Below the pieces are notes generated by a model. That model was not told the origin of the DNA. It saw only the letters and a program-made list of their open reading frames with translations, and ran no database searches. The translations under genes and the position numbers were made by a program. Of a stretch of DNA of 46,647 bases, positions 14,809-44,922 are shown in pieces. The DNA comes from Pseudozyma flocculosa PF-1 (taxonomy: Eukaryota > Basidiomycota > Ustilaginomycetes > Ustilaginales > Ustilaginaceae): NCBI RefSeq assembly GCF_000417875.1, contig NW_006920873.1, positions 1,013,713 to 1,060,359 on the forward strand, written 5' to 3'. Numbering within the stretch: position 1 is the stretch's first letter; each line of letters begins with the position of its first letter.

Positions 14809-15530
14809 ATCCGACCTATCCACCCGCGCTCGTGGGCCCGGCCAGAGCAGCACTACCACCACCAGCAGCAGCAGCAGCGATGAGTTCCCAATCCGTCCTG
14901 GTTCGCCCGAGGGCGGCATTTATCCCTGCATCGCCACACGACCGCCCGCAGTACGACAGCCGACACACGCCCCTTGCTCTTCCTCTTGCGCTCCTCTCCA
15001 ACGAGCGTTGTCGCGAGCTGGCAGGGCAGGGCGGCAAAGGATGAGCCCGCTTCACGATGCCCTCGCCCACTTCATCGCATCAGAAGGAAAAAGGTGCGGG
15101 GGATATATGGCATGAACGAGCGACCAGACGAGGGAAGGAGGGGGAAGAGACGAACAAAAACAACAAACGAAGGTGTTACGGTCCGTATAGACGGAAAAGA
15201 CGAAAAGGAGCGACGAGGATGACTGACGCATGCCGTCGGACGCAGGGCATCGCACCACGACGACCACGGCGGACGGCGGCGGCGGGACGCGACCTTCCAT
15301 CCGCTCTAGCATGACTGCTCGCTCCGCGACGCGAGGCGGGCCGGGGCGGGGCGGGGCGAGGCGAGGCATCGGGGTAACATGCGGGATACGACGACGATGG
15401 CGAGGGGCCCACCCGAGATGCCGTGCCGCCCGCCCGCCGGGGTATGGATTATGGGATCAGGTGCGGCCGATGCACCGACAGTCGAGCAGGGGCAGAAATC
15501 GGCGCGATCGCCTGGCGCAGTCGCCAGGCG
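14809..15530. other. Convergent intergenic region between CCT3 and the PLD gene
   Basis: No gene seen. It contains both 3' flanks. It lacks the GGCC(A/T) arrays common in 5' regions, although GGGGC-type runs occur near 15337-15366. Confidence 0.55.
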
Positions 15531-18500
15531 CTACTTGGCCGAGGCATCCGCAGTCGGCGCCGCAGCGACAGAGGCGGGAGCAGGAGCAGGAGCGGCGCCG
15601 GTGGCTTCGGTGCCCGCTGTGGCACCAGCACTGGCGCCAGAACTGGCACCACCATCGCCGGTCGCCGGCGCAGCGTCGACGACGACGGCGCCACCGGCAG
15701 CGCCACCGTTGGCGGCCGTCGAACCGCTCGCCGCCTCGCTCTGGGGCGAGGTGCGGTCCTTGCCCGTATCGGCGATTTCGGCGCCGGTGCGTCCGCGCCA
15801 GACACCGTCGCGCTGGTCGACCTTGCCGTAGAGGTGGGTGCTCTGGTTGCGGCGCAGCGCGTCCATCCACTCGGCCACAATCTGGCGGCTGTCGACCATG
15901 ACGTTGATCTCCTGGCTGTGGAACCAGCTCTGCGTGTCCTGGTTGCCGCTGCCCAGGATGGCCACCTGGCCGTCGATGGCGGCAAACTTGACGTGGCAGT
16001 TGCGCTGCTTGCGCACCGCGTTGAGCGGCCGCGTCATGTCCTTGCCCGTGTACCAGTATACCTCGAGGTAGCGCTCGTCGCCCTTGCCCTCGCGCCGCAG
16101 CTGGCGGTAGAAGCCGGTGACGACCTGCTCGTTGGTGCCGCCCTGGAACGGCATGCTCTCGCTCTTGTCGTTGAAGCCCAGGTCGAGCCAGAGCTCGACG
16201 CGCACGTGGCGCCGCACGCACGCCAGCACGGCCGCCTTGATCGGCGACGCGTTGAGCGTGGGCGACTGGATGAAGACGTGCTCCTTGGCGTATCGGAACC
16301 CGGCCAGCCAGGCGGCGTCCTGCGGGTTGCGGATGTCCGAGTGGCCGGGCGTGCCGTGCGGTCGCCGGTTGACGAGGGCCATGGGCACGGGCTCGTGCGG
16401 CTGGTGGAAGGTGTAGGGCTGGAAGTCGAGCAGCGCATCGGCCGCCGCCGCCTCGAGCGCCCGGTCCGCCAGGTCGTCGGCGGTGATCTCGCCCTTGACC
16501 TTGGAGTTGTTGGCAAAGTCGAGCGCCTTGGTGATGGCGCTCAGCCGCTCGGCGCCCGACGACCTCGACAGGTTGGACAGCGTCCGCCGGTGGATGCGGC
16601 GGTAGGCCACCGAGCCCGGTGCGCCGTCGCCATCGCCCTCGGCGTCGGCATCGTCGTCGGCGACGGCCGATTCGCCGCGTTGCTCGCGGGCACCAGGCAC
16701 CTCGAGCTTCGACGAGTCGGCCGAGGCGGGCGCAACGACAAGCGGCGGTGCCGGCTGCGACGCGTCGTGGTGGCCATCGACATGCGACACGGTGACCAGC
16801 GCCGGATCGCGCACCGCCTTGGCCTTGTCGACGTCCCTGTCGTCGTCGTGGAGGCCGGAGCTGTCGAGCCGCGGGCTCAGGTCACCGTCGACGACGGTCG
16901 TGCTGAGGGCCTCGTGGCTCCCAGCATTGTTCTGGTCGTAGAGCTTCGCGGCCGCCGCTGCTGCTGCCGGCCTGGGTCCGGCGCCGTCGTGCCTGGCTTC
17001 ATCACGGTGGAGGCCCTCCTCCTCCTTGACCGGCTTGGGGATGCGCAGGCCCCTTGCCGCTGCGTCGAGGTTGCGCGGGCGCGGGTTACGTCGGACCTCG
17101 TTGGCCACATTGCGGCTACTGCTGGGTCCGAGCCCGAACACCTCGAGCGCGCCGTCGGCCCATCCGCCGGGCTTGATGCCCTCCATCTTCATCAAGGCGT
17201 CGACCACCTCGGCAAAGTTGCGCGGCCGCGGCGCTCCCGTGGCTGCGGCGGGGTCGCCGTGCTCGGCGCCGCCTGCGCCCATCTTGCCGTGCTGCCCAGA
17301 CCCGCCGAACCTCTCGCCCAGCACCTTGTGCGCCCAGATCGCCCCGGCTTTCCGCGCCGCCTTTTCGCTGTCGACGCNNNNNNNNNNNNNNNNNNNNNNN
17401 NNNNNNNNNNNNNNNNNNNNNNNNNNNNNNNNNNNNNNNNNNNNNNNNNNNNNNNNNNNNNNNNNNNNNNNCGCCTTTTCGCTGTCGACGCCGGCTGCGC
17501 TGCCTCCGTCGGCCGTCGGCGATGTCGTTGGCGTCCCCGCCGACGCACCTCCGACGGGTGTCGCCGCTGCCGCCGCGGCCGCCGCGCCGCCGCCTCCCGC
17601 CGTCGGAGACTCGAGCTGGCTGTAGCTGTCCCTCCGCATCATCTGGTCGACGACGTCGCCGAGGTGGAGCCCGCCGACCAGGCTGCGCTCCTTTTCGTCC
17701 TCGGTCGCCTCGTCGTCCTGCTTGAGCTGCTGGCGCGCGTTGCGGGCCATCTCGCGCATCTTTTCGGGCGACATCGAGGGCAGCGTGCTCGACTTGCCCG
17801 TCATGAACGCCGAGGGCGATGGCGCGACGGGGGCGGGGATCGAGAGGCAGGGCAGAGGCGGCTGGAGACGGTTGCCCCAGCTGATGAGGGCGTGGTCGTA
17901 GATCGAGTTGACAATGTCGCCCTCGAAGCGGACGCAGGCCTCGATGTTGGGGCGGTCCTGGATGTTGTTGCTGTTGATCAGCGCCACCTGCCGGTCGACG
18001 ATGAGCAGCTTGGCGTGGAACGTGCCCATCAGCGGCCGGTGGTAGTTGAGGATCTCCATGGTCAGGTTGGGGATCTCGTGTTCCTCGGGCAGGCCGTTGG
18101 TCTTCCACATGCCCGGCGGGACGGGCTTGCGCAAGCGGAAGAGGTCCGCCAGCGTCTGCGGGCCTCGGTCCCACATGAGCTTGACGACGACCTTTTCGTC
18201 GGGTCCCGGCTCGTCGACATCGACCTCGTCCAGGTCGCCTTCGAGCCTAGCCTTGTCGCCCTCGGACCGCTCCGCCGAGCCTGGCGCGCCGGTATCAGTG
18301 AGCCGCGCCGCCTGCTTCTCGGCCTCGCTGGCCGCTACCGCGGGCGTGCTGGCGCCGCTGTCGCCGGTGCGGCCGCTCTCTGGCGAGGCGCCCCGGCCTC
18401 GGCCCCGTCGTGCCGCCGTCGCCGCTGCCTGGCGCCGCCTCTTCTGGACCCTGCGGTCGAGCTCTCTCAGCGCCTCTGCGATCTTGTCGACGTTTTTGCC

Positions 18501-19179
18501 GCCCTGCCAGTAGTTGGTGAGCAGGATGACTTCCTTGCGCGCCGCGACGATGCAGTCGTAGTAGTGGCCGATGATGTCGGGCCCCGTCGAGAAGATCGAC
18601 AGCGGCGCGATGCCGGTCGTTGCGAGCAGCGGCGGCGAGACGACACCGGACATGGGGTTCCTCGGCAGCGGGAGGAGGCAGTCGGCCAGCATCTGAAGCG
18701 TGGCGAGCGGGGCCGAAGCAGAGCGGGTCAGCTGCCGGACGGAAAACATGGGGAGGCCCGAGGTGCGAGGAGGCGCGAGCAGGACTCACCATGAGGTAGA
18801 GGCGCGAGGGCCCGCCCTTTTCGAGCTCCTTGTAGCCGTAGCGGAGCCGGACGCGCTCGAGCTCGTCGTCGTCGGGCTCGCGGTTGCCGTCGTGCACGGC
18901 GCCCTTGTCCCAGACCCAGTGCTTTCCGCGACCCTCTTCGAGCTGTTCCTTGATGGTGAAGCGGAGCAGGCCGCGGCGAGCGGCCGAGGGTGGTGGGAAG
19001 AGGATCTCTGCGGCTTTCGAGGGCGGCAGGGTTGGGTCGGCTGCGACTGCCGAGGTGATGGTGGCCTGCTGCGACTGCGGACGGGCATCCTGGCAGGTGC
19101 CGACGTCTGCGCCGGCGGATGTATGTGCGAGGTGCTGTGCGCCCTCGCGCGTGGCTTTTGACGACGACCCGCAGATCAT
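15531..19179 (-). CDS. Phospholipase D superfamily protein with two HKD motifs (assembly gap inside)
   Basis: Exons are 19179-18790 and 18731-15531, with a 58-nt GTGAGT...CAG intron joined in phase 0 (RLYLM-LTRSAS). This gives 1,196 codons including 94 Ns. The start ATG has AAG before it; an earlier start cannot be excluded. HKD1 is HAKLLIVD followed by NSNNIQDRP (about residue 369); HKD2 is HVKFAAID followed by GSGNQDTQSW (about 1043 in gapped numbering). Each has the His, Lys and Asp of the PLD catalytic signature. ARKEVILLTNYWQGG precedes HKD1 and WLDLGFNDKSESMPFQGGTNEQ precedes HKD2. There are no PX/PH domains, so this is the fungal non-classical PLDc type and not the Spo14/PLD1 type. Long disordered spacers separate the halves. 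The likely role is phosphodiester hydrolysis or transfer on phospholipids; the substrate is not determinable here. Confidence 0.9.
17358..17491. other. Assembly gap (94 N) flanked by identical 20-mers
   Basis: Ns occupy 17378-17471. The 20 bases before the gap (17358-17377) are identical to the 20 bases after it (17472-17491). The repeat offset is 114 bases, exactly 38 codons. See findings. Confidence 0.97.
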
Positions 19180-25540: not shown

Positions 25541-28500
25541 ATGGCCTCTTCTGCTCCATCAGCAGAAGCTGCGGGCTCTTCTGCCGGACCCTCTGCTTCA
25601 CCCCAGAACATCGCTCCCGCCGCCTCGGCGAAGAAACCGCGCAAGCCGAGAGAGCCCAAGGCGCCCAAACCGGCATCCTCGGCCCAGGCCGCCGATCAGG
25701 ATGCCAAGCCGCTCCACCGGCCCGTCATGGTGTGTCGCCGCTGCAGGACCAAGAAGATCAAATGCGACCTCGGCTTCCCGTCCTGTGGCCCATGCCTCAA
25801 GGCCAACGAGAGCTGTGTCGGCCTCGATCCGGCCACGGGCAGGGAGGTCAGCAGAAGGTGAGCTTGTTGGTGGTTGGTCTGGAGCCCGTTTTGAAGATGC
25901 TTGCGCTTTTCCTTGGACCCATCACTCTGACTCACGTTCCGCAACCCTTCGTGCGAGCAGCTACATCGCCGAGCTAGAGGACCGCGTTGACCAACTTCAG
26001 AAAGAGCTCGAGGCGATACGAGGCTCGCAGCAGCCGCAGCCGCAGCCGCATCAGCAACACCATAGCGGCGCCATCCCCGACCCCTTGTGTGCGCCTCATT
26101 CCTATGCAGGTGCCGGCGCGACGCCAGGACAGCCTGCTGGATCGAGCGAGGCAGCCGCCAAGAGGCACCTCGCAGAGGACCGCCACGACGCCACTGAACG
26201 CCCTGCGAAGCGGCTGGCTCAGCATGTCGAGGTTGCTGCCGGCAGCGGCAGAGGCGTGTATCACCACCCTCTCGGCCCGCAGCGGCTAACGCTCGGTGCC
26301 AACGGCGTCGAGAGCCTGCCCGCCAAAGCGCTGCGACCATCGCTGCGCCAGCTCAACTCGTACGCCAGCGGCCTCTCTCCAGCGCGGCTGCTCTGCCAAG
26401 CCATTCAGCAGTCTGCCTCTGCGGGCCTGCGCTTCCGAGACCCCAAGGCGGGCGGCGAAAAGAAGGTGAGCGCGACCAAGACCCGCGGGCCTGCGGTCCC
26501 GGGTCCCCCAGAAGGATCGGCCGCGGCCGACATCGAAGGCGCCGTCAAGCGCGAGGAGGACGGTAGCGACACTCGCGGCCGGCCCGAGACGCGCGACTCC
26601 GCAGGTGGCGGTGAGACGCAGGCCGAACCTGCCCTGGATGCCAAGTCCGGCTCGGCGACCCCGTCCGAGGGCCACAGCAAGAAGCAGTCGCCCTTCGACG
26701 ACGCCGAGGCGATGCAGTATGCCGAGGCCACCGAGACGTCCGACATCACGGTGCCGGCACCTGAGCAGCTCTCGAAGCCGTCGCCGCCCCCGGCCCCCTT
26801 CCCACCTGTGCCCGTGGCCCGCAGGCTGGTCGACGCCTACTTCGAGCGCGTCAACCCGCAGTGGCCGCTGCTCGATCGCAGCACTTTTATGCCGAGGTTC
26901 GAAGCGGCTTGTCGAGAGGGCCTCAGCCGGGCACGGGCCAAGGCCGAGTCGCACGCGCAGGCCGATGGCAGTGCGTCTGCCAGCTTCCACGAGGACGAGG
27001 TCGAGATCGACCTGCAGCCCGCCGACGGCCACCTCTTCCACCTTGTCCTCGCCATCGCCGCGGCCATGGGCTGGACGCAGGCGCGCTTCTCGGCCGAGCG
27101 TCACCACGAGGCGGCCATGCTCTACCTCGACCCGCGCCGGGCGAGCAGTGGCCAGCACGGCGTCGGCGCCATCATGGGCCGCGACTCGCTCGAGCAGCTC
27201 CAGTGCCTGCTGCTGACGGCCCTCTACTCGATGATGCGCTCGACGCGGCCGGGGATCTGGTACACGCTCGGCGTGGCGCTCCGCCTCACCACGGGTCTGG
27301 GCCTGTACAGCGAGAATTCCGGTCTGCTGAAGGGCGGGCCCTCTGCGGAGGACGGCGCTCCCGAGAGCATCGCCAACAAGAAGCGACGACTCTTCTGGTG
27401 CGCCTACAGCATCGATCGCTCGGTCGGCGTCCACCTCGGGCGTCCGTTCGGCATCGCCGACACCGACATCAAAGTCGGCCTGCCTTGGACGCCGGCGGAC
27501 GATGAGTATGCCGAGGGCCAGCACGGCAAAGACGCTCCTCCGACCGGCGATGACGCAGACGCGGTGGACGACGGCGTGAGCGCTGCCGGCTTTGATGAGC
27601 GCGCGAGCGACACCTCGACCGAGAGGCTGAGGAAGGAGGCCGCCTCGACGCTGGCGGCACTCGGCGAGAGCCGGGCCAGCTCGCCATCATCTGCGATGAC
27701 TGCACCGGCGACGATGACGGGACCAGGCGACGTCGCGGCCTCGAGGCAGGCTCCGCCGTCGTCGAGTCGACCTGGCAGCGGGAGCCGGTGGGTGTCGCTC
27801 GCCTTCTTCCGCCTCCGCATCCTGCAGTCCGAGATCCAGGGCCTGCTCTTCTCCAATGCCGAGCTCCCACGGAGGTTTGCGTCCTTCGAGCACTGGAAGG
27901 TCGACATGCTGGATCGCCTGGCCGACTGGCGCGCCTTTGCACCTTCGTCGAGGGACGAGCTGGCCCGCGCCGGCTGCGGCTACAACCCCATCTTTCTCGA
28001 GCTCAACTTCCGGCAGACTCTGCTGATGATCTACGGCATGAGCCCGCGCTTCCCGACGCCGAACCGCTCGGACCTGGCGCACGTCGAGGACTGCAGCCGC
28101 GTCATCCTCGACATCTACGCCGTGCTGGCCAAGGAGGGCCAGCTCAACTACGCCTGGATGACGGGCCACAACATCTTCATCAGCTGCACCAGCTACCTCT
28201 ACGCAATCTGGCAGATCAGCGCGAGCTACCCGGCCTCGCTGCACTCTTCGTTGCTGCGGGACCACCCGACCAAGGTGGCCGAGATCGAGCACTACGGCCG
28301 CGCCTGCGACGACGTGCTGGCATCACTGCAGTGGTACACGGCCGAAAAGTGCCGCAAGTGCCTGCGGACCATGTTTGCGGCTACGGCGGGGCTGGTCGAG
28401 AAGCTCGACAAGATGGTGGCCAGGGGCCCCGCGACAGTCTCGCTCGGCGACCCGTCCCGACAGGCGCCGCAAGCTCAGCCGCGACAGCCGGCACAGCAGC

Positions 28501-29981
28501 AAGGGCAGCAACAGCAGCAGACACAGCGTCTCCTGCCGCAACCTCCGGCAGCGCATCAGCCGTCCGCCGCCGCCAGCCCGTCATCGGCCTTGATGAGCGG
28601 ACCAAAGGACAAGTGGTGGGACCCTGCGCGCGATGCTCCGACTGGATGGGAGAGCGCCAGGACGAGCGATCTGCGGTCGGAGCGGCAGCCAGTTGGCCGT
28701 ACCGACAGCCCAGGCCTCTCTGCCCGGTCGCTGTACACGCAGGATGCACCATCGCGCCTGCAGCCCTCGGGCAAGACGCCACGAGGTACGCTCGCCATGC
28801 TACCGCCGGTGCCGACCTGGCCGGGCGCCCATGGCCCGGGCTCCAACGTCACCCCGCTTGGCGGCCGCGGCGGTCCGCCGGTCATCGGAGGGCACACTTC
28901 GGGCAGCTTTTCGCCGTCGTCGCGGATGACCCCGTTGCCGCCAGGGGATCCACGTTCTCGGTCTCGATCTGGTAGCCGCAGCTCGGTCTACTATTCGGCC
29001 GACGGTGCCTCGATGGCGACGAGCCCGCACGCCATCGCGAGTGGTGCACATCCAGACGCCCGGATGCCGTGGAGAACGGCCAGCCCTCGATTCCCACCAA
29101 TCGACGGCCCTGCCCGACACCTCTCGTTTGGATCGCCGTATGGGTCGGGTGCCTCGCCAATGGCCGGCTCGCCTTACGCTATCGGCGACACTCGGGCCGG
29201 TGGACACAGCGCTGGCTCTGGTGCTGATACGTTGTCCACCGCCGCCGCGTACCCTGGGCAGCCGCAACAGGCTGGGAGCACGCCCAGCAACGGGCTCGAG
29301 TTTGATGCCATCGCTGGCGTCAATGGCTCTCCCGGTGCGCTGCTAAGGCAGACGCTCGGCGCGAGCCCGGGCAGGATCTCTGCGCATTCGTCGTCTGCGG
29401 CCGACAGCCCAAACCAGATTGACTTTTCGTCGCTCATGGCCGACTCGGCCATGGAGCTGGACCAGCTCTTCCGCGACGCAGGGCTGTCGATCAACTTTGA
29501 CGGCGGATTCGGCTCGGCCGATGGCGGCGCGGCCGGCCTGCCCGCAAACGGCGATCAGAGCCAGCAGGGCGGCCTCGGGTTCGCTGACATGCGACCGGCC
29601 GGGGCTAGCAGCACGTATCTCGACGCTGGGGACGGGACCATCGGCATGCATCACCATGGCAGCGGCGGCGGTCTAGAGGGCTTAGGACGAGGTTACGAAC
29701 ACGGTGGCGGCATGGACGGCGGCCCGGGGCCCGGCTCGACGACAGGCGCAAGCTGGTTCGGCAACGGTGCGAGCTTGGGCGGCGGCGGTGGCGGTATGCT
29801 GGCCAACTCGGACGACGGGCTGGAGAACGACTATGACTGGGAGGCGATGGGATTCGGGTTCCGCATGTCCCAAGCTCCCGCCGTCATCGGCCCTGATCCG
29901 CTGGGCTTCGGTTTCGGCGGCGGCGGCGGCGCAGGTGGTGGCAGTGGCGGTGCTGCGGCAGGCCCGACAGGCTTTGTCTGA
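25541..29981 (+). CDS. Zn2Cys6 fungal transcription factor with fungal_trans domain
   Basis: Exons are 25541-25857 and 25961-29981 (103-nt intron), giving 1,445 residues. The binuclear zinc cluster is at residues 65-92 with spacing C-x2-C-x6-C-x6-C-x2-C-x6-C (CRRCRTKKIKC... GPC...C), so all six cysteines are present. The splice then joins directly to a coiled coil (SYIAELEDRVDQLQKELEAI), the usual dimerisation helix. The fungal-specific transcription factor domain begins near residue 390 (LVDAYFERVNPQWPLLDRST) and includes LQCLLLTALYSMMRSTRPG and KKRRLFWCAYSIDRSVGVHLGRP. The C-terminal third is disordered (Gln-, Ser-, Gly-rich) with an acidic-hydrophobic stretch, DYDWEAMGFGF, resembling an activation motif. 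It should bind CGG-type half sites as a dimer; the target pathway is unknown. No metabolic cluster is adjacent. Confidence 0.93.
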
Positions 29982-37783: not shown

Positions 37784-40096
37784 CTACTTGACGCTCGGCG
37801 GCTCGACGACGGGCACGCAGTACCGCCCGTACAGCGACAGCACCGAGTAGGTCAGGCCGTGCGCCACCTCGACCTGGAACGGCGCATACGCAACCTTTTC
37901 CCCGTCGATGCTGCACATCCCCCCGCCCTTGAGCCGCCGGTGGCCCTCGCGCAGCCGGGGCGTGACGCGGTACGCTTCCACCTTGAGGTACGCCAGCGCC
38001 CGCTGGTAAATCACCCGCCCGCTCTCGGCAGAGTCGCCCTCGGGCAGTTTCGACAGCCGCCCGCCACCGTGCATCATCATGGCAACGTCAATCGCTCCGT
38101 CGCCCGGTAGCGCGTACGGGAACTGCATCAGGTCCCGCCCCACCCACGGCAGCTTGCCCCCGTACAGCGACGCCAGCGGCTCACGGATGCGGTACCACCC
38201 CAGCATCTCGTCGCCCGCGTCGTCGCCGTTGTCGTTGTCGTCGTTGTCGCCGTCTCCGCCCCCTCCGCCCCCTCCTCGTCGCGACCCGTCCGCCGCCGGC
38301 GCAAGGGCGATGCTGTGCGGCCACGAGGGATCCCGAAGGTCAAAGGGCCGCGGTGGCACGCCCTCGGGCCCAAGCGCGTCAGTCACTGCTCCGTGGCGCA
38401 GCGGCGGCTCGGCATCGCGCTCGAATCGCAGGTTGCCAAACGCGTCACGCGCCCACTCGGTCGCGCTGTCGTCCTCGTCGCCGTCCTCCTGCCTTGTCCC
38501 ATCGACCTGCGCGCTGTCGGGCGAACCACCAAAGCCTCCGGACGCTGCGGTTGCACCCGCAACGCTGCCGCCGCCGCCGCCGCCGGCACCGGCCGCCGAC
38601 GACGCCGACGCGCCATCCAGCCGCCCGGCCTGCTGGAACTTGCGCACGCGCTCGCGCATCTCTGCCTTGCTCTTGCTCCCGCGAAGCCCCAGCTTGACGT
38701 CGACGTCGACCTCGCACTCGGTGTTGCGCAGCACACCGGCCGCGTACCCGATCAGGAAGCGCGTGTCGCCCAGCGCCCGCATGCTCTCGGTGCCCAGGTC
38801 AATGTCGGCCATCAGGCCAATCGACTGCGAGAGGAACGAGTAGTACCTCACAAACGGCTTCGACGGCGCATCGGCCATCAGCGCCGCGTCCTCCGAGGCT
38901 CGTGTCGTCGTCGTGCTCGAGGGCACGGGCGCCGCGCCCATGTCCGCCCTGCGCTTGAACTTGGACGGCTGGGCCGGAACGCCAGGGATCGGGGTGCCGG
39001 GAGGGAACGCTGAAGCCGGCTGCGTGACGGTGAGGAGGTCGGCGGGCATGGGGCGGCCCTTGATGATGTTGAGGCAGGCGAGCGCCAGGCTGAAGCCTTG
39101 CTCGACGCCCAGCAGGTTGATGGCCGAGGCGTTGCCGCTGCCGGCGGGGATGGGGGCCAGCGGCAGGCGGAGCGCCCTTTTGGCATCGGACCGCTTGGCG
39201 AGACCATTGAGCACCTCGTGGATGAGGCCGTCGCCGCTCATGACGGCCATGGCGTCGTAGCTGTCGACGTCGAGGTCCCTTGCCACCTCGACGCCGTGTA
39301 GGCGGTACTGGGTGAAGGTGACGTCGAGCTTGCAGAGGGCCGCCTCAAAGATGGGGCGCACGCGGCTGTCGTAGAGCTGCCTTGCCTTTCCCGGCCCGCC
39401 TGCGGGGTTGACGAGGATCTTTAGGCGGCGGAAGGGTTTGACGTCGCCGTAGGCCTTGGCCATGACGTCGTCGACCCAGCGTTGGGCCTTGACCTCGACG
39501 TCGTCGTCGTCGCGCGAGGCGTGTGCGATGCGGGCCTCGATGCGAAAGAGGCGCAGGTTGGAGCAGGGCCCTTCGAGCTGCTGCTGCAGCCTCTGTGATC
39601 GCTGCTGGGGGGTCAGTGCGTGGTAGGCGTCCTCGCTCATCGAGGCCATGCAGGCGGGGCTGGCCTTTGGCTTTTTGAAGAACGAGAAGCCTGAGGCGGG
39701 CGAAGGTGCGGAGCTCTGGAGGGGGGGCGAGAGGAGGCGGACCAGCAGGGAACCGCCGTCGGAGTCTGCGATGAAGGATGTGTGTAGGACGAGGGCGAGG
39801 GGGACGCGGAGGTAGGCCTTTGACTGGTCCGAGTAGGCGGAGCGCGAGTGGCCTCGGAGGACAAAGAAGAACTCGTGGTCGTAGGAGACGAGGGCGGGCT
39901 TGCCCTCGATGGAGACGGCGAGCGATTGGGGAGGGAGGATTGCATGGCCGTCTCCGCCGTTGAGCGATGCGGCGTTTGAGGAAGACGAGGCGGTGGCGGT
40001 GGCGGTGGCAGTTGGCGCAGTCGACGCGGCTGGCCTCGAGTGGGGAGGGAGGACCGAGATGGCGGGCCCGCGGTGGCCCTGGTCTGCCGCCGACAT
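37784..40096 (-). CDS. LCB4: Sphingoid long-chain-base kinase (diacylglycerol kinase catalytic family)
   Basis: A single exon of 770 residues from ATG 40096 to TAG 37786-37784. The DAGK/sphingosine kinase catalytic domain begins at about residue 225: KILVNPAGGPGKA (228 on), the lipid-kinase signature MSGDGLIHEVLNGL (287 on) and PLAPIPAGSGNASAINLLG. Farther on come RYYSFLSQSIGLMADIDLGTE, DLMQFPYALPGDGAIDVAMM and the C-terminal SIDGEKVAYAPFQVEV. This order and spacing match Lcb4/Lcb5 and sphingosine kinases, which phosphorylate sphingoid bases at C1 using ATP to make the signalling lipid. Two disordered inserts (Gly/Ser-rich, then Gly/Asp/Asn-rich) separate conserved blocks. The assignment to LCB4 rather than LCB5 follows the family name only. 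The gene is divergent from the coronin/RIB7 gene across a 479-bp region. Confidence 0.94.
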   Translation of the reverse strand: MSAADQGHRGPAISVLPPHSRPAASTAPTATATATASSSSNAASLNGGDGHAILPPQSLAVSIEGKPALVSYDHEFFFVLRGHSRSAYSDQSKAYLRVPLALVLHTSFIADSDGGSLLVRLLSPPLQSSAPSPASGFSFFKKPKASPACMASMSEDAYHALTPQQRSQRLQQQLEGPCSNLRLFRIEARIAHASRDDDDVEVKAQRWVDDVMAKAYGDVKPFRRLKILVNPAGGPGKARQLYDSRVRPIFEAALCKLDVTFTQYRLHGVEVARDLDVDSYDAMAVMSGDGLIHEVLNGLAKRSDAKRALRLPLAPIPAGSGNASAINLLGVEQGFSLALACLNIIKGRPMPADLLTVTQPASAFPPGTPIPGVPAQPSKFKRRADMGAAPVPSSTTTTRASEDAALMADAPSKPFVRYYSFLSQSIGLMADIDLGTESMRALGDTRFLIGYAAGVLRNTECEVDVDVKLGLRGSKSKAEMRERVRKFQQAGRLDGASASSAAGAGGGGGGSVAGATAASGGFGGSPDSAQVDGTRQEDGDEDDSATEWARDAFGNLRFERDAEPPLRHGAVTDALGPEGVPPRPFDLRDPSWPHSIALAPAADGSRRGGGGGGGDGDNDDNDNGDDAGDEMLGWYRIREPLASLYGGKLPWVGRDLMQFPYALPGDGAIDVAMMMHGGGRLSKLPEGDSAESGRVIYQRALAYLKVEAYRVTPRLREGHRRLKGGGMCSIDGEKVAYAPFQVEVAHGLTYSVLSLYGRYCVPVVEPPSVK

Positions 40097-40575: not shown

Positions 40576-43500
40576 ATGCCGCCCTCTCGCTTCGCCAACG
40601 TCTCCAAGTGGAGAAACGCCCTCCTCACCCCGGCCAAGCAACAACACCGCTTCCACGAGCTCGGCCTCGCCACCCCGCCAGACTCGGGCACCTTGGTCGC
40701 CGCCTCATCAGACTGGATCATAGCACGGGCCAATACCACCGGCACCCTCCTCTTCCTCCCCCACCACTCGCCTGGAAAGTATGCAAAGCAGCCCCCCACC
40801 TACCACGCCGCTTCCGCACCCATCTCCGACCTCGCCCTCAGCCACTTTGACGATGGCCTCCTCGCCGTCGCTTCCGAAAACGGCGCCATCGCACTCCACA
40901 CCTTGCCACCGCCACCCACTGCCGACGCCGCCTTCCCTCCAGCCCTCGATCCCCCTCCGCAGCGCCTCATCGACCTCGAGCCAGTCGCCGCCACAAAGCC
41001 CGTCTCGTCCCTCGCCTTTCACACCACCACCAGCAACCTCTTGGCCGCATCCGCACACTCGTCCGTCGCCCTGTACGACGTCAACGCCGCAAAACCCACC
41101 ATCACCTTCGACGCTCCCTCGCCCCTCCTCTCGCTCGACTGGTCCCAGGATGGCGTCAACCTCGCCTCGATCGCAAAGGACGGCGTCGTGAGCATCTGGG
41201 ACCCGCGATCCAGCTCACAGCCGGCCTCGACGGTGCACGCCCACGCCAGCAAGGTCAAGCCCTCCCGACTCGCCTATGTTCGCTCAAACCTCATCACCAC
41301 CGGTTTCTCGGCCATGCGCGAGCGCGAATGGGCCGTGTGGGACCCCAGAGCCCTCCAGTCTCCCCTCAAGCGGGCCACCATCGACAACTCGACCGGAGTC
41401 ATCACGCCCCTCGTCGACCACGACCGCGGACTCGTCTACCTGCTGGTCAAGGGCGACGCGACCCTGCGCTGGCTCGAAGTCGACGACGCCAAGACTTTTA
41501 CCGAGGGCAACTGCCCGCTCAACTTCACCATGGGCGGCGGCGCCATCGCCCCTCCCACGGTGCACAGGGTCATGGAGGGAGAGGTGGATCGCCTTGTGCT
41601 CGCCTCGACTACCAGCGACGACTGCCTCGTGCCCGTCAGCGTCACCATCCCCCGCAGGCAGTACATCGACTTCCACCCCGACCTCTATCCGCCCACGTCG
41701 AGCCGCGTCGCCGCCCAGACCGCTGCAAGCTGGCTGGCAGGCAGCGACGCTGCAGTCGAGCTCATCAGCCAGGATCCCGCACACGCCGCCACGGAGCGTC
41801 AGAGAGTGCGAGGCCAGGCGGGCTTGTCCCGCCACGCTGTAGCGTCGCCCACAAACGCTTCTGACCCAGCCCCCGGCAACGAGTCCTCGCCTGCGCCGGT
41901 ACCGCAGCCGCCGACGCAGGCAGGCCAGCCTGGACAGGACGAGCTTCCTGCTGCTGCGCAGACAATTGCGCCCTCGTCGTCATCCGAGCCCAAGCCTGTC
42001 ACAACGCCTTCGGCGTCAGCTGCGTCCAAGAGACCATCTGAGCCGCAGACCCCGCAGCCTGTCCAGAAGACCTCGGCCGCACCCGTCCGTCACGCAGCTT
42101 CACAGCCGGACGCCAGCAAGGCTCCTTCATCGGGGCTCCCTACATCCCCGAGCCCAGCCGGAGGGGCCCGGACTGCGAACCCGGCTGCGTCTGCGCAGCT
42201 GCCCACTCCCAAGCGCGTCGCTCAGCCGCCTACGGCTCCGAGCAAGGACGCGCCGCGGTGGTCCAGGAGATTCCTGCTCGGCAGCACACCCCTCATCGCT
42301 GCGCACCAGAACCTCGCCGGCCTCGACCTTGGCATGCCGCCAGATGGTCGCATGCTGGCGGCAAACGACCGCTTCCTCCTCTTCCCGCTCGCCGGTCCCG
42401 GCGGCCGGATCGGCGTGCACCCGACCAAGGAGTCGGGCCGGATGCCCACGCTCGTGCCGGCACTGTCGGCGTCGAGCAAGCTCGTCGACTTTGCCCTCGA
42501 TCCCCTGGACCCGCAGCGTGCGGTCTCTGTTCATGAGGATGCGGCAATCCGCGTATGGCGGCTGCCCGCCAATGGGGAGGCGCTCGCGGAGCAGACCATC
42601 GACACGCCGGAAGCCATCCTCTCGTCGAAACGGGCTAGCAAGCAGTCCGAACTCGCCTTCCACCCGAGCGCCAAGGACCTTCTCGCCAGCTGCTCTCCCG
42701 AAAAGGGCGGCAGCCTCCTCTTGTGGAACCTGGCCAGCCCGTCGACCGGGCCCGTCGCGATTCCAGTCGAGGGCGATGGGACGACCTCTCTGGCGTGGAG
42801 CCCCGATGGCAGGTCCATGGCGCTATCGTGCAAGGACAAGGCCGTGCGCGTCATCGCGCTGCGACCCTCTGCCACTCGAGCAGCGGACTCGGCGCCGATG
42901 TCGACGGCCTCGTCGGATGCCGAACGCGCGTCAAGGGCCTTTCTGGAGCGTTCGATCACCTTTGCCCGGCACGAGGGTCGACCCCACGTCACGCTCACCT
43001 TTGCGCAGTCGAGCGACGGCAAGATCGCAGGAGAGGGCAAGCAGCAGCTGGCTCTCAGCGGCAAGGAGAGCATGCTCATGACCCACAACCTCCGGACGCT
43101 GCACGACGGCATCCTCGTCGGCATCGGCACCGTGCTTAACGACGATCCTCAGCTCAACGCCCGGCTGCTGTCGTCGCCAACCCCGGTCGATCGTCTGCCA
43201 CGACCGATCGTCCTCGACTCGGCGCTGAGGACGCCTGTCGCGTGCAAGCTGATCCGCAACGGCCAGAGCGGCGTCGGCCGCCGACCCCTCATCCTCTGTT
43301 CCGCCTCTGCCGACGAAGAGCGCCGACGAGCGTTGCACGAGGCTGGCGCCGAGGTCGTGCAGCTGCCATCGGCCGGGGGCAGCCAGCTAGCCTGGGACGA
43401 CGCGCTGGCGTTGCTCTCGCGGCACGGCATCGAGCGACTCATGGTGGAAGGCGGCGCCGCCGTGATCGATAGCCTGATGGGCCGACAGGACCTCGTCGAC

Positions 43501-44922
43501 ACGCTGCTGGTCACCGTCGCCCCGCGCACCGTGGGCGAGCACGGGTTCGGCTTCTCTGCAGCCGTGCCGCACCCGTGTCCGGGAGCATCGCAGAGAGAGA
43601 GCGACACATTCCGCCTGCGCGCCGAAGAGACCTTTGGGCCCGATCGAGTCATTGTCTGGGACCAGTCGAGTCGAAAGCCGGAGGTGGTTGGGGATGGATC
43701 CGCGACAGCAGTCGACATTAACACGACCGCCGCCACGCTCCGCTTTTCTGATCTGCGCAACTGCCGGCTGACGTGGATCGACGACGAGCACCTCGCCGTC
43801 GTCGGCCACACGGTCGGCTCGGCACGCCAGCTGCGCCTGCTGCGCGTCGGCGGAAGCGGTCTGGAGGAAAAGAGCCGGCTGACGCTCGACGTGTCGCCCG
43901 CGCTCCTCTTTCCGTCGTACGACGCCGACACCAACATCCTCTGGCTGTGGTCCAAGGGCGAGAGGCTCATCTCGGCGTACGAGGTGCGCGTCGCCGACCG
44001 GGGGCCCCTGACCGCCCTCTCGACGTTCCAGCACGGCCAGCCGCAGCTGGGCGTCGCCTTTTTGGCCAAGACGGCCGTCGACCCGAGCAAAGTCGAGATT
44101 GGCGTGAGCTACCGCATCGAAAAGGGCGAGATCCGCAGGGTGTCGTGGAGCGTGCCGAGGTTGAGGGTGAGTTGCGGGATGGCCGCCGGACGCACCGCCT
44201 TGTCTCTCCCGTCGGCGCTGACACGATGCGTCCATGTCTGTCTGCTTGCCCCACGTCCTGCAGCCCGAGTTCTTCCAAGACGACATCTTTATCCCCACGC
44301 GCGATACGTCGCAGCCCTTGACGACTGCGGCGCGGTGGCTCCAGGGCGAGTCAGACGAGCGCGAGGCAACCTACCTGGATCTGCGACCCGCCGACATGGT
44401 GCCGCGTGAGTGCCGGCTCCGGCCTGGTCGCAGTCGCTGCACGGCTTTCCCCCTGCTGACCCGCCCGTCCCACCTGGTCGCGACCCCCTGGGATGTGCTG
44501 TCCCCAGTCTCTCAAGCTCCCGAGGTGAAAAAGGAGAGCAAGCTGCCAAAGGGCCCCGTGGCCAAGGTGCTGACCGAGGACGAGAAGAAGGAGAAGCTGC
44601 TCGATGGCGTGAGTGCCGATGGTCGCTTGGCATCGGACTGGGCAGCGCTGTGCTGGGCTGGGCACCTCTGCGACGGATCGGCTGACGATGGCCTGTCCGC
44701 GTACCCTCCTCCTCACCCTTGGTCTATTCTGCGCCCGTGTGGATGTTGGCGCACCAGATCTTCAAGAAGGCCAAGCACCGTGGCGGTACCGCCTACGACG
44801 CCGCCGGCGCCGGCAATGGCGTTGGACGCGATGAAGAAGAGGACGACGACGACGACGACGATGAGCCCCCCGTCGGCTCTGCCGCTCGAAGGGCCCCCGA
44901 CAACGACGACTGGAGCGACTGA
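40576..44922 (+). CDS. Coronin-7-like WD40 protein with an embedded RIB7 reductase domain
   Basis: Exons are 40576-44166, 44264-44405, 44508-44608 and 44758-44922 (introns 97, 102 and 149 nt), giving 1,332 residues. The start is gcccgccATGC. The first coronin unit covers about residues 1-400: RFANVSKWRNA, LDWSQDGVNLASIAKDGVVSIWD, DRGLVYLLVKGDATLRWLE and RRQYIDFHPDLYPPT. A Pro/Ser/Ala-rich linker follows (about 405-555). A second coronin unit begins at about 560: NLAGLDLG, DFALDPLDPQRAVSVHEDA, SLAWSPDGRSMALSCKDKAVRV. It resumes at about 1055 (NCRLTWIDDEHLAVVG, LLFPSYDADTNILWLWSKGE, PEFFQDDIF) and ends with DMVPLSQAPE and an acidic tail with NDDWSD, the coronin-7 C-terminal hallmark. Residues about 775-1030 are a RIB7 reductase (separate entry). 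Coronin-7 proteins act in Golgi/endosomal trafficking and actin regulation. There is no stop, frameshift or intron around the insertion. Confidence 0.9.
42898..43665 (+). other. RIB7: RIB7 (diaminohydroxyphosphoribosylaminopyrimidine-type reductase) domain inside the coronin gene
   Basis: Residues about 775-1030 of the fusion. The block starts at an in-frame ATG (MSTASSDAERASRAFLERS) and continues RPHVTLTFAQSSDGKIAG, LALSGKESMLMTHNLRTLHD, GILVGIGTVLNDDPQLNARL, RPIVLDSALRTP, RLMVEGGAAVIDSLM and DTLLVTVAPRTVG, finishing near FGPDRVIVWD. These are the diagnostic blocks of fungal Rib7 / the RibD C-terminal reductase, including the NADPH-site EGG (residues 958-960). Family knowledge: Rib7 reduces 2,5-diamino-6-ribosylamino-4(3H)-pyrimidinone 5'-phosphate to the ribitylamino form, an early step of riboflavin synthesis. 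The domain looks complete at both ends and no catalytic block appears degraded, so an active enzyme is plausible (inference). Confidence 0.93.

Follow-up and report, generated by a model that had tools for sequence, protein, structure and literature searches.

A predicted RIB7 reductase embedded in the second propeller of a coronin-7-type protein of Pseudozyma flocculosa

We examined a 46,647-nt stretch of the Pseudozyma flocculosa PF-1 genome (contig NW_006920873.1, positions 1,013,713 to 1,060,359; hereafter the window) and, within it, a gene on the + strand at 40576..44922 that encodes a tandem coronin of the coronin-7 type with an embedded RIB7, the 2,5-diamino-6-ribosylamino-4(3H)-pyrimidinone 5'-phosphate reductase of the riboflavin (vitamin B2) pathway. 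Coronins are proteins known for handling actin. By reading frame, the gene comprises four exons on this strand (40576-44166, 44264-44405, 44508-44608 and 44758-44922); the frame, the GT-AG introns and the stop were checked by script. Exon 1 is open for 1197 codons, from the ATG at 40576 to the GT at 44167, and is followed by three GT-AG introns of 97, 102 and 149 nt. The joined frame encodes 1332 aa, contains no internal stops and terminates with TGA at 44920-44922. The product is a 100 % identity match to PSFLO_03196 of P. flocculosa, which one source names 'Coronin'. In the NCBI model (P0002, 1260 aa), two in-frame introns (41806-41907 and 42085-42198) are removed from the inter-propeller linker, the rest being identical. 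The first-pass annotation of this DNA had described exon 1 as a single continuous exon; this holds for the reading frame and not for the NCBI annotated transcript, in which both of the linker introns lie outside RIB7. Comparison with relatives supports the start codon: the sequence MPPSRF or MPYSRF is found at the start of 9/10 aligned coronin-7-type proteins (in P0016 after an N-terminal extension), the tenth being P0004, which is without the first coronin unit.

Pfam analysis of exon 1 returned WD40, WD40_4 and DUF1899 alongside RibD_C, and the coronin parts are arranged as two units in tandem: Coronin-1A is matched once by unit 1 and once by the opening part of unit 2, and there are two WD40_4 matches. 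Unit 1 (40576..41775, +; residues 1-400) consists of the first propeller and a WD40_4 end piece, with residues 8-400 matching Coronin-1A 2aq5 (phmmer, E value 1.2e-41) and WD40_4 at residues 352-393. A linker rich in proline, serine and alanine (41776..42255, +) separates it from the N-terminal part of unit 2 (42256..42864, +), which was delimited by alignment, matches residues 38-207 of Coronin-1A (E value 1.3e-12) and runs to the strand CKDKAVRV. The C-terminal part of unit 2 (43735..44166, +) supplies the remainder of the second propeller. Exons 2-4 (44264..44922, +) encode a WD40_4-type end piece (six-frame WD40_4 match at ~44261-44353, E value 6.5e-7) and an acidic tail ending in DNDDWSD; the first-pass annotation had placed the coronin-7 C-terminus on three further exons. 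Comparable endings (DDWS, DDWD or DDWG) are present in 5/7 relatives that have no insert, with none in the P0013 and P0016 models. The DUF1899 start is present when the whole protein is searched (E value 4.2e-8); a six-frame DUF1899 search of the genome at an E value of 0.001 found only a short coronin on contig C21, the gene described here not being among the matches. This short coronin is a second coronin of the P. flocculosa genome.

Unit 2 is interrupted by RIB7 (42919..43662, +). RibD_C was matched at exon-1 residues 803-988 (Pfam, E value 1e-32, positions 1-167 of 197), and a RIB7 profile of 259 positions, built from 11 stand-alone proteins, matched P0002 residues 707-958, equivalent to exon-1 residues 779-1030, over positions 4-258. 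The first-pass annotation had placed a full RIB7 at about residues 775-1030, which is off by a few residues at most. The segment that precedes the RIB7 core is included in the insert (DAERASRAFLERSITFA in P. flocculosa; DAEEQAASFLRESLAFA in Sporisorium reilianum). Read at the sequence level, the insert is a near-complete RIB7 that begins at approximately codon 4 of the enzyme, extends into its final codons and lies in frame within the second propeller. Compared with the 26 best stand-alone matches (among the best 120 of 2759), the embedded RIB7 shows 56-61 % identity, and the nine of these matches that carry names come from smut fungi or their yeasts.

Residues needed by the yeast enzyme are retained. 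In yeast Rib7, T79, D83, E180, G182, the G76-x-G78 motif and the G181-G182 motif are reported to serve activity or NADPH binding, and T35 to serve substrate choice (PMC3631187). We matched the equivalent residues by hand on an alignment to yeast Rib7 (4ha7) and scored their presence in the fusion proteins by motif. The Thr equivalent to Thr35 is encoded at 42997..42999 (+), within the motif LTFAQS of P0002, P0003 and P0004, and all three fusions thus have Thr rather than the bacterial Lys at this position. G-I-G-T-V-L-N-D, encoded at 43120..43143 (+) and found in 3/3 fusions, corresponds to G76, G78 and T79 (NADPH) and D83 (activity), while E-G-G at 43447..43455 (+), seen as VEGG in 3/3 fusions, corresponds to E180, G181 and G182 (activity and NADPH). 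Relative to stand-alone RIB7 (yeast Rib7; smut proteins of ~255 aa), the embedded enzyme aligns over nearly the whole length and has the same catalytic and cofactor residues; the difference is that both of its ends are fused into another protein.

The insertion site lies after the strand CKDKAVRV, where alignment with Coronin-1A reaches approximately residue 207, and before the strand at TLRFSDLRN, which means that the insert separates the third WD-repeat sequence of unit 2 from the fourth. The usual WD40 strand order would make this the c-d loop of a blade. The earlier description, 'roughly between blades 3 and 4', needs correction: by structural convention, and judging from strand order in the models, the insert likely occupies the c-d loop of blade 4 and does not fall between blades 3 and 4. 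On either side of RIB7 is a short, fast-evolving linker: the N-terminal junction (42865..42918, +), which includes Met775 (ATG at 42898), and the C-terminal junction (43663..43734, +).

Structure models were obtained for two of the fusions, and in both the Rib7 fold sits on low-confidence linkers outside a propeller that is built from sequence on both sides of the insert. The reductase fold is present in these models, and the insert does not keep the second coronin unit from forming a single propeller in them, consistent with the expectation of a coronin-like propeller bearing the reductase as an excursion. In the P. flocculosa model, the predicted local distance difference test (pLDDT) score falls below 50 at model residues 207-218 (N-terminal junction) and 478-489 (C-terminal junction). 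A Foldseek search with this model returned no coronin among the best 50 of 1792 matches, and coronins were seen only in a second look. Enzyme and propeller are both predicted to fold, with RIB7 held on two flexible linkers.

To place the gene among its relatives, proteins of ~659-2096 aa were searched with the RIB7 part as query, and 11 of 2,628 candidates matched: three coronins, six proteins with a Sec7 domain, one from Geosiphon and one from Mycena. The three coronin-RIB7 fusions are those of P. flocculosa (P0002) and Thecaphora frezii (P0003) and P0004, a protein from an 18-kb contig that is without unit 1 and the tail. Their RIB7 blocks cover positions 4-258, 5-258 and 6-258 of the 259-position profile. 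Geosiphon pyriformis P0010 combines RIB7 with PF01222/PF09759 and Mycena citricolor P0011 combines it with RhoGEF; either may be a merged model. Among ten aligned coronin-7-type proteins, the block is present in 3/10, all at one site, and absent from 7/10. The insert-free set comprises Violaceomyces, Ceraceosorus, Tilletiaria, two Tilletia proteins, one filed under the fern Adiantum and one further protein. The flanking motifs are 19-24 residues apart in 6/7 of these (measured by script), with Ceraceosorus not fitting the pattern. The protein filed under Adiantum nelumboides (P0014) is a coronin-7 of fungal type, placed next to Ceraceosorus at a fork that the tree does not resolve, and is probably a fungal contaminant of the fern data.

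Identity between the P. flocculosa and T. frezii proteins varies sharply along their length. It is 68 % in unit 1 (272/399), 77 % in unit 2 before the insert (155/202) and 81 % after it (117/144), against 43 % (38/88) in the linker between the units; RIB7 is 74 % identical (184/248) and the tail 71 % (91/129), while the N- and C-terminal junctions fall to 25 % (3/12) and 18 % (4/22). A similar profile was obtained with P0004 (unit 2 before the insert, 60 %; N-terminal junction, 29 %; RIB7, 61 %; C-terminal junction, 12 %; unit 2 after the insert, 62 %), and 81/141 residues of unit 2 after the insert are shared with insert-free Violaceomyces. At the level of sequence, the pattern is that of constrained domains on free linkers.

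In a tree of unit 2 computed without the insert, which we rooted on Tilletia, the three fusions group together (support 97/96) beside Violaceomyces (100/99), and the simplest account of this would be a single insertion in the common ancestor of the three fusion-bearing fungi. Trees of RIB7 itself were less clear. In the first (53 rows), P0004 falls together with 27 further rows, most of them stand-alone RIB7s of smuts, and away from the P. flocculosa and T. frezii proteins (98/91), and this tree carries a warning that long branches meet. In the second (41 rows), P0004 was unresolved, and neither monophyly of the fusions (approximately unbiased test, p-AU 0.166) nor monophyly of the stand-alone proteins (0.336) was rejected. 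We also considered fission, i.e. the release of a free RIB7 from a fusion, as the first tree would suggest, and do not claim it. No coronin-7 of Ustilaginaceae was found among 17 matches from candidates of ~693-2205 aa, an absence that is weak because only 7,997 size-limited candidates were scored.

A second RIB7 elsewhere in the genome was then sought. The PF01872 profile gave one match in the 23.0 Mb of the P. flocculosa genome, and a query with the Sporisorium graminicola stand-alone RIB7 matched this locus with an E value of 2.0e-86, the other two matches (0.925 and 0.971) being at chance level. The embedded copy was thus the only RIB7 found to be detectable in the genome sequence. The other pathway families lie on other contigs than that of the fusion gene (C5): GTP cyclohydrolase II on C14 and C25, DHBP synthase on C28, lumazine synthase on C8 and riboflavin synthase on C11. 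Six deaminase-family matches were obtained, 0 of them on C5, and none was assigned to RIB2. An apparent giant RIB1, an 8442-aa open frame around the GTP cyclohydrolase II on C14 (~743000-749000), was discarded as an assembly gap of N.

Three further genes were noted in the window. Upstream of the coronin gene, and divergent from it, is a gene for a diacylglycerol/sphingosine kinase-type protein (37787-40096, -; DAGK_cat, E value 1.3e-22). A protein with a fungal-specific transcription factor domain is encoded at 25701-29978 (+; E value 1.4e-23) and a PLD-like protein at 15531-18749 (-; E value 1.9e-17), the latter overlapping a long antisense open frame (15444-18794) that gave no Pfam match at 1e-5.

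Coronins carrying metabolic enzymes have been reported from another basidiomycete group. In Filobasidiella/Cryptococcus, the tandem (class-3) coronin has a D-glycerate 3-kinase between its units, the short coronins of Tremellomycetes carry a C-terminal dUTPase, and Filobasidiella genomes hold a further copy of each coronin-fused enzyme, according to Eckert et al. (2011, PMC3203266). The tandem Filobasidiella/Cryptococcus protein resembles that of P. flocculosa in being a basidiomycete coronin-7-type protein joined to an enzyme of small-molecule metabolism, its long exons spanning enzyme and coronin domains alike; it differs in having the kinase between the units and an additional copy of the enzyme, whereas in P. 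flocculosa RIB7 lies inside the unit 2 propeller and no second copy was found. No match, to glycerate 3-kinase or otherwise, was seen in the P. flocculosa inter-unit linker among 25 of the 27 Pfam families matched to exon 1. The Tremellomycetes short coronins likewise combine a coronin and a metabolic enzyme in one protein, but by a terminal fusion that replaces the coiled coil of the short coronin.

The Sec7-RIB7 proteins (P0005-P0009 and P0012) offer a comparison within the smuts. Names are given for Tilletia horrida, T. indica and T. caries/laevis; the four named rows all have intact Rib7 activity motifs, while P0012 contains the start of RIB7 only. As in the coronins, RIB7 is fused to a trafficking-related protein, here in another smut lineage; unlike in the coronins, it is C-terminal to the Sec7 domain and is not inserted into a domain. 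In the RIB7 trees these proteins group as a clade of their own (100/99), and from their sequences they represent a second, separate fusion of RIB7 to a trafficking-type protein in smuts.

The first-pass annotation knew of no described coronin-RIB7 fusion, and full-text literature searches limited to open-licence papers likewise returned no description of one. In one apparent hit (PMC13261697), the letters 'RIB7' occur, among 12 of 21 passages, only in the name of the ciliary protein RIB72. No title on tandem coronins in Ustilago maydis was seen among the best 20 of 23 literature matches, the P. flocculosa transcriptome paper (PMC6079639) contained nothing on riboflavin need or expression under the terms searched, and no literature on the kinship of P. 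flocculosa and Thecaphora was found.

Of the checks suggested in the first-pass annotation, those on a second RIB7, on relatives with and without the insert and on structure models all favoured its interpretation. Taken together, we consider it probable that a single protein serves P. flocculosa both as its only RIB7 reductase and as its coronin-7, by way of an in-frame RIB7 in a loop of unit 2, and one step of riboflavin synthesis is likely run from the loop of a cytoskeleton protein. A point that weighs against this is that assembly gaps leave some chance of a missed RIB7 copy. RIB7 would have been captured once, in the common ancestor of the three fungi, at a loop tolerant of long insertions; the enzyme would be active on its two tethers with the propeller intact, and the protein would likely be bifunctional. 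Since the searches turned up no further RIB7, the fungus would be locked into the fusion while it makes its own riboflavin, leaving the coronin to carry the enzyme. It is unlikely, by comparison with such passive capture, that the fusion was selected because it brings the reductase, and perhaps the making of flavins, to the actin- or Golgi-associated sites of coronin-7. Both the enzyme and the coronin parts are conserved across the three fungi, as selected tethering would predict, but lock-in would also predict this; there is no sign of linked pathway enzymes, the matches of the other steps all being on contigs other than C5, and the substrates of the RIB7 step are small and would diffuse. Tethering gains from the recurring pattern formed by the Tilletia proteins, in which RIB7 is joined to Sec7 (an ARF exchange factor), and the enzyme-bearing coronins of Filobasidiella/Cryptococcus (PMC3203266). 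The data do not decide between these readings, and our best guess in favour of passive capture and lock-in is made because the junctions are not conserved and no pathway match lies on this contig.

Readings in which RIB7 and coronin are not one working protein fare worse. A nested gene, with a separate RIB7 made from an internal promoter or start and coronin readthrough of little importance, is very unlikely: Met775, whose ATG at 42898 is in frame, stands where many stand-alone smut RIB7s start and is perhaps, from its position in the sequence, a relic of such a start, yet in T. frezii the stretch between the coronin strand and the RIB7 core contains no Met, and an ATG-started separate enzyme would there need a start codon within the propeller or within the enzyme itself. 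Moreover, 0 stop codons separate RIB7 and coronin in 3/3 fusions, the coronin parts show the same degree of conservation as RIB7, and the third-position GC of the block (0.820) does not distinguish it from its flanks (0.817 and 0.892). It is most unlikely that RIB7 is cut out by alternative splicing or protein cleavage to give coronin-7 and a separate RIB7. The junctions are variable and predicted to be flexible, as expected of a cleavage site, but their sequences are not conserved. A weak donor (GTGCGC at 42844) and acceptors near 43663-43711 are present; against splicing, 42700-43850 contains no GTRNGT donor, and the only in-frame pair among the one donor and the three acceptors scanned, 42844-43665 (worked out by hand), would define an intron of 822 nt against 97-149 nt for the introns of this gene and would delete the strand residues VRV. 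Alternative products may still be made in P. flocculosa. Gene models can be merged, and the Geosiphon and Mycena 'fusions' from the same search may be of this kind, but an artefact of misassembly or of merged neighbouring models is barely credible here: a single open exon contains the block, with in-frame coronin on both sides, and the recurrence of this arrangement at one and the same position in T. frezii and P0004 argues that it is neither.

Yeast Rib7 is reported to be a stable homodimer (PMC3631187) and class-3 coronins to be without a coiled coil (PMC3203266), and RIB7 pairing would therefore join two coronin-7 molecules that otherwise lack the coiled coil of short coronins. That such pairing turns a coronin-7 otherwise acting singly into a two-headed actin/Golgi scaffold altered by NADPH or substrate binding in the loop, uniting riboflavin synthesis and cytoskeleton in one regulated machine, and that the Ustilaginaceae later freed RIB7 while the tandem coronin vanished, is a distinctly improbable extension.

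Compared with published enzyme-bearing coronins, what is new here is the enzyme, its position inside a propeller and its status as the only copy found. A likely essential enzyme seems to have been moved into a cytoskeletal propeller loop and retained there while at least three fungi diverged; if this is the only RIB7, loss of the coronin would mean loss of the vitamin pathway. The protein offers a natural test of the extent to which insertion of a whole domain is tolerated by a WD40 propeller, and of whether the capture of enzymes by scaffolds is accident with lock-in or is useful. Added to the cases published for Filobasidiella, it makes coronins recurrent carriers of enzymes in basidiomycetes.

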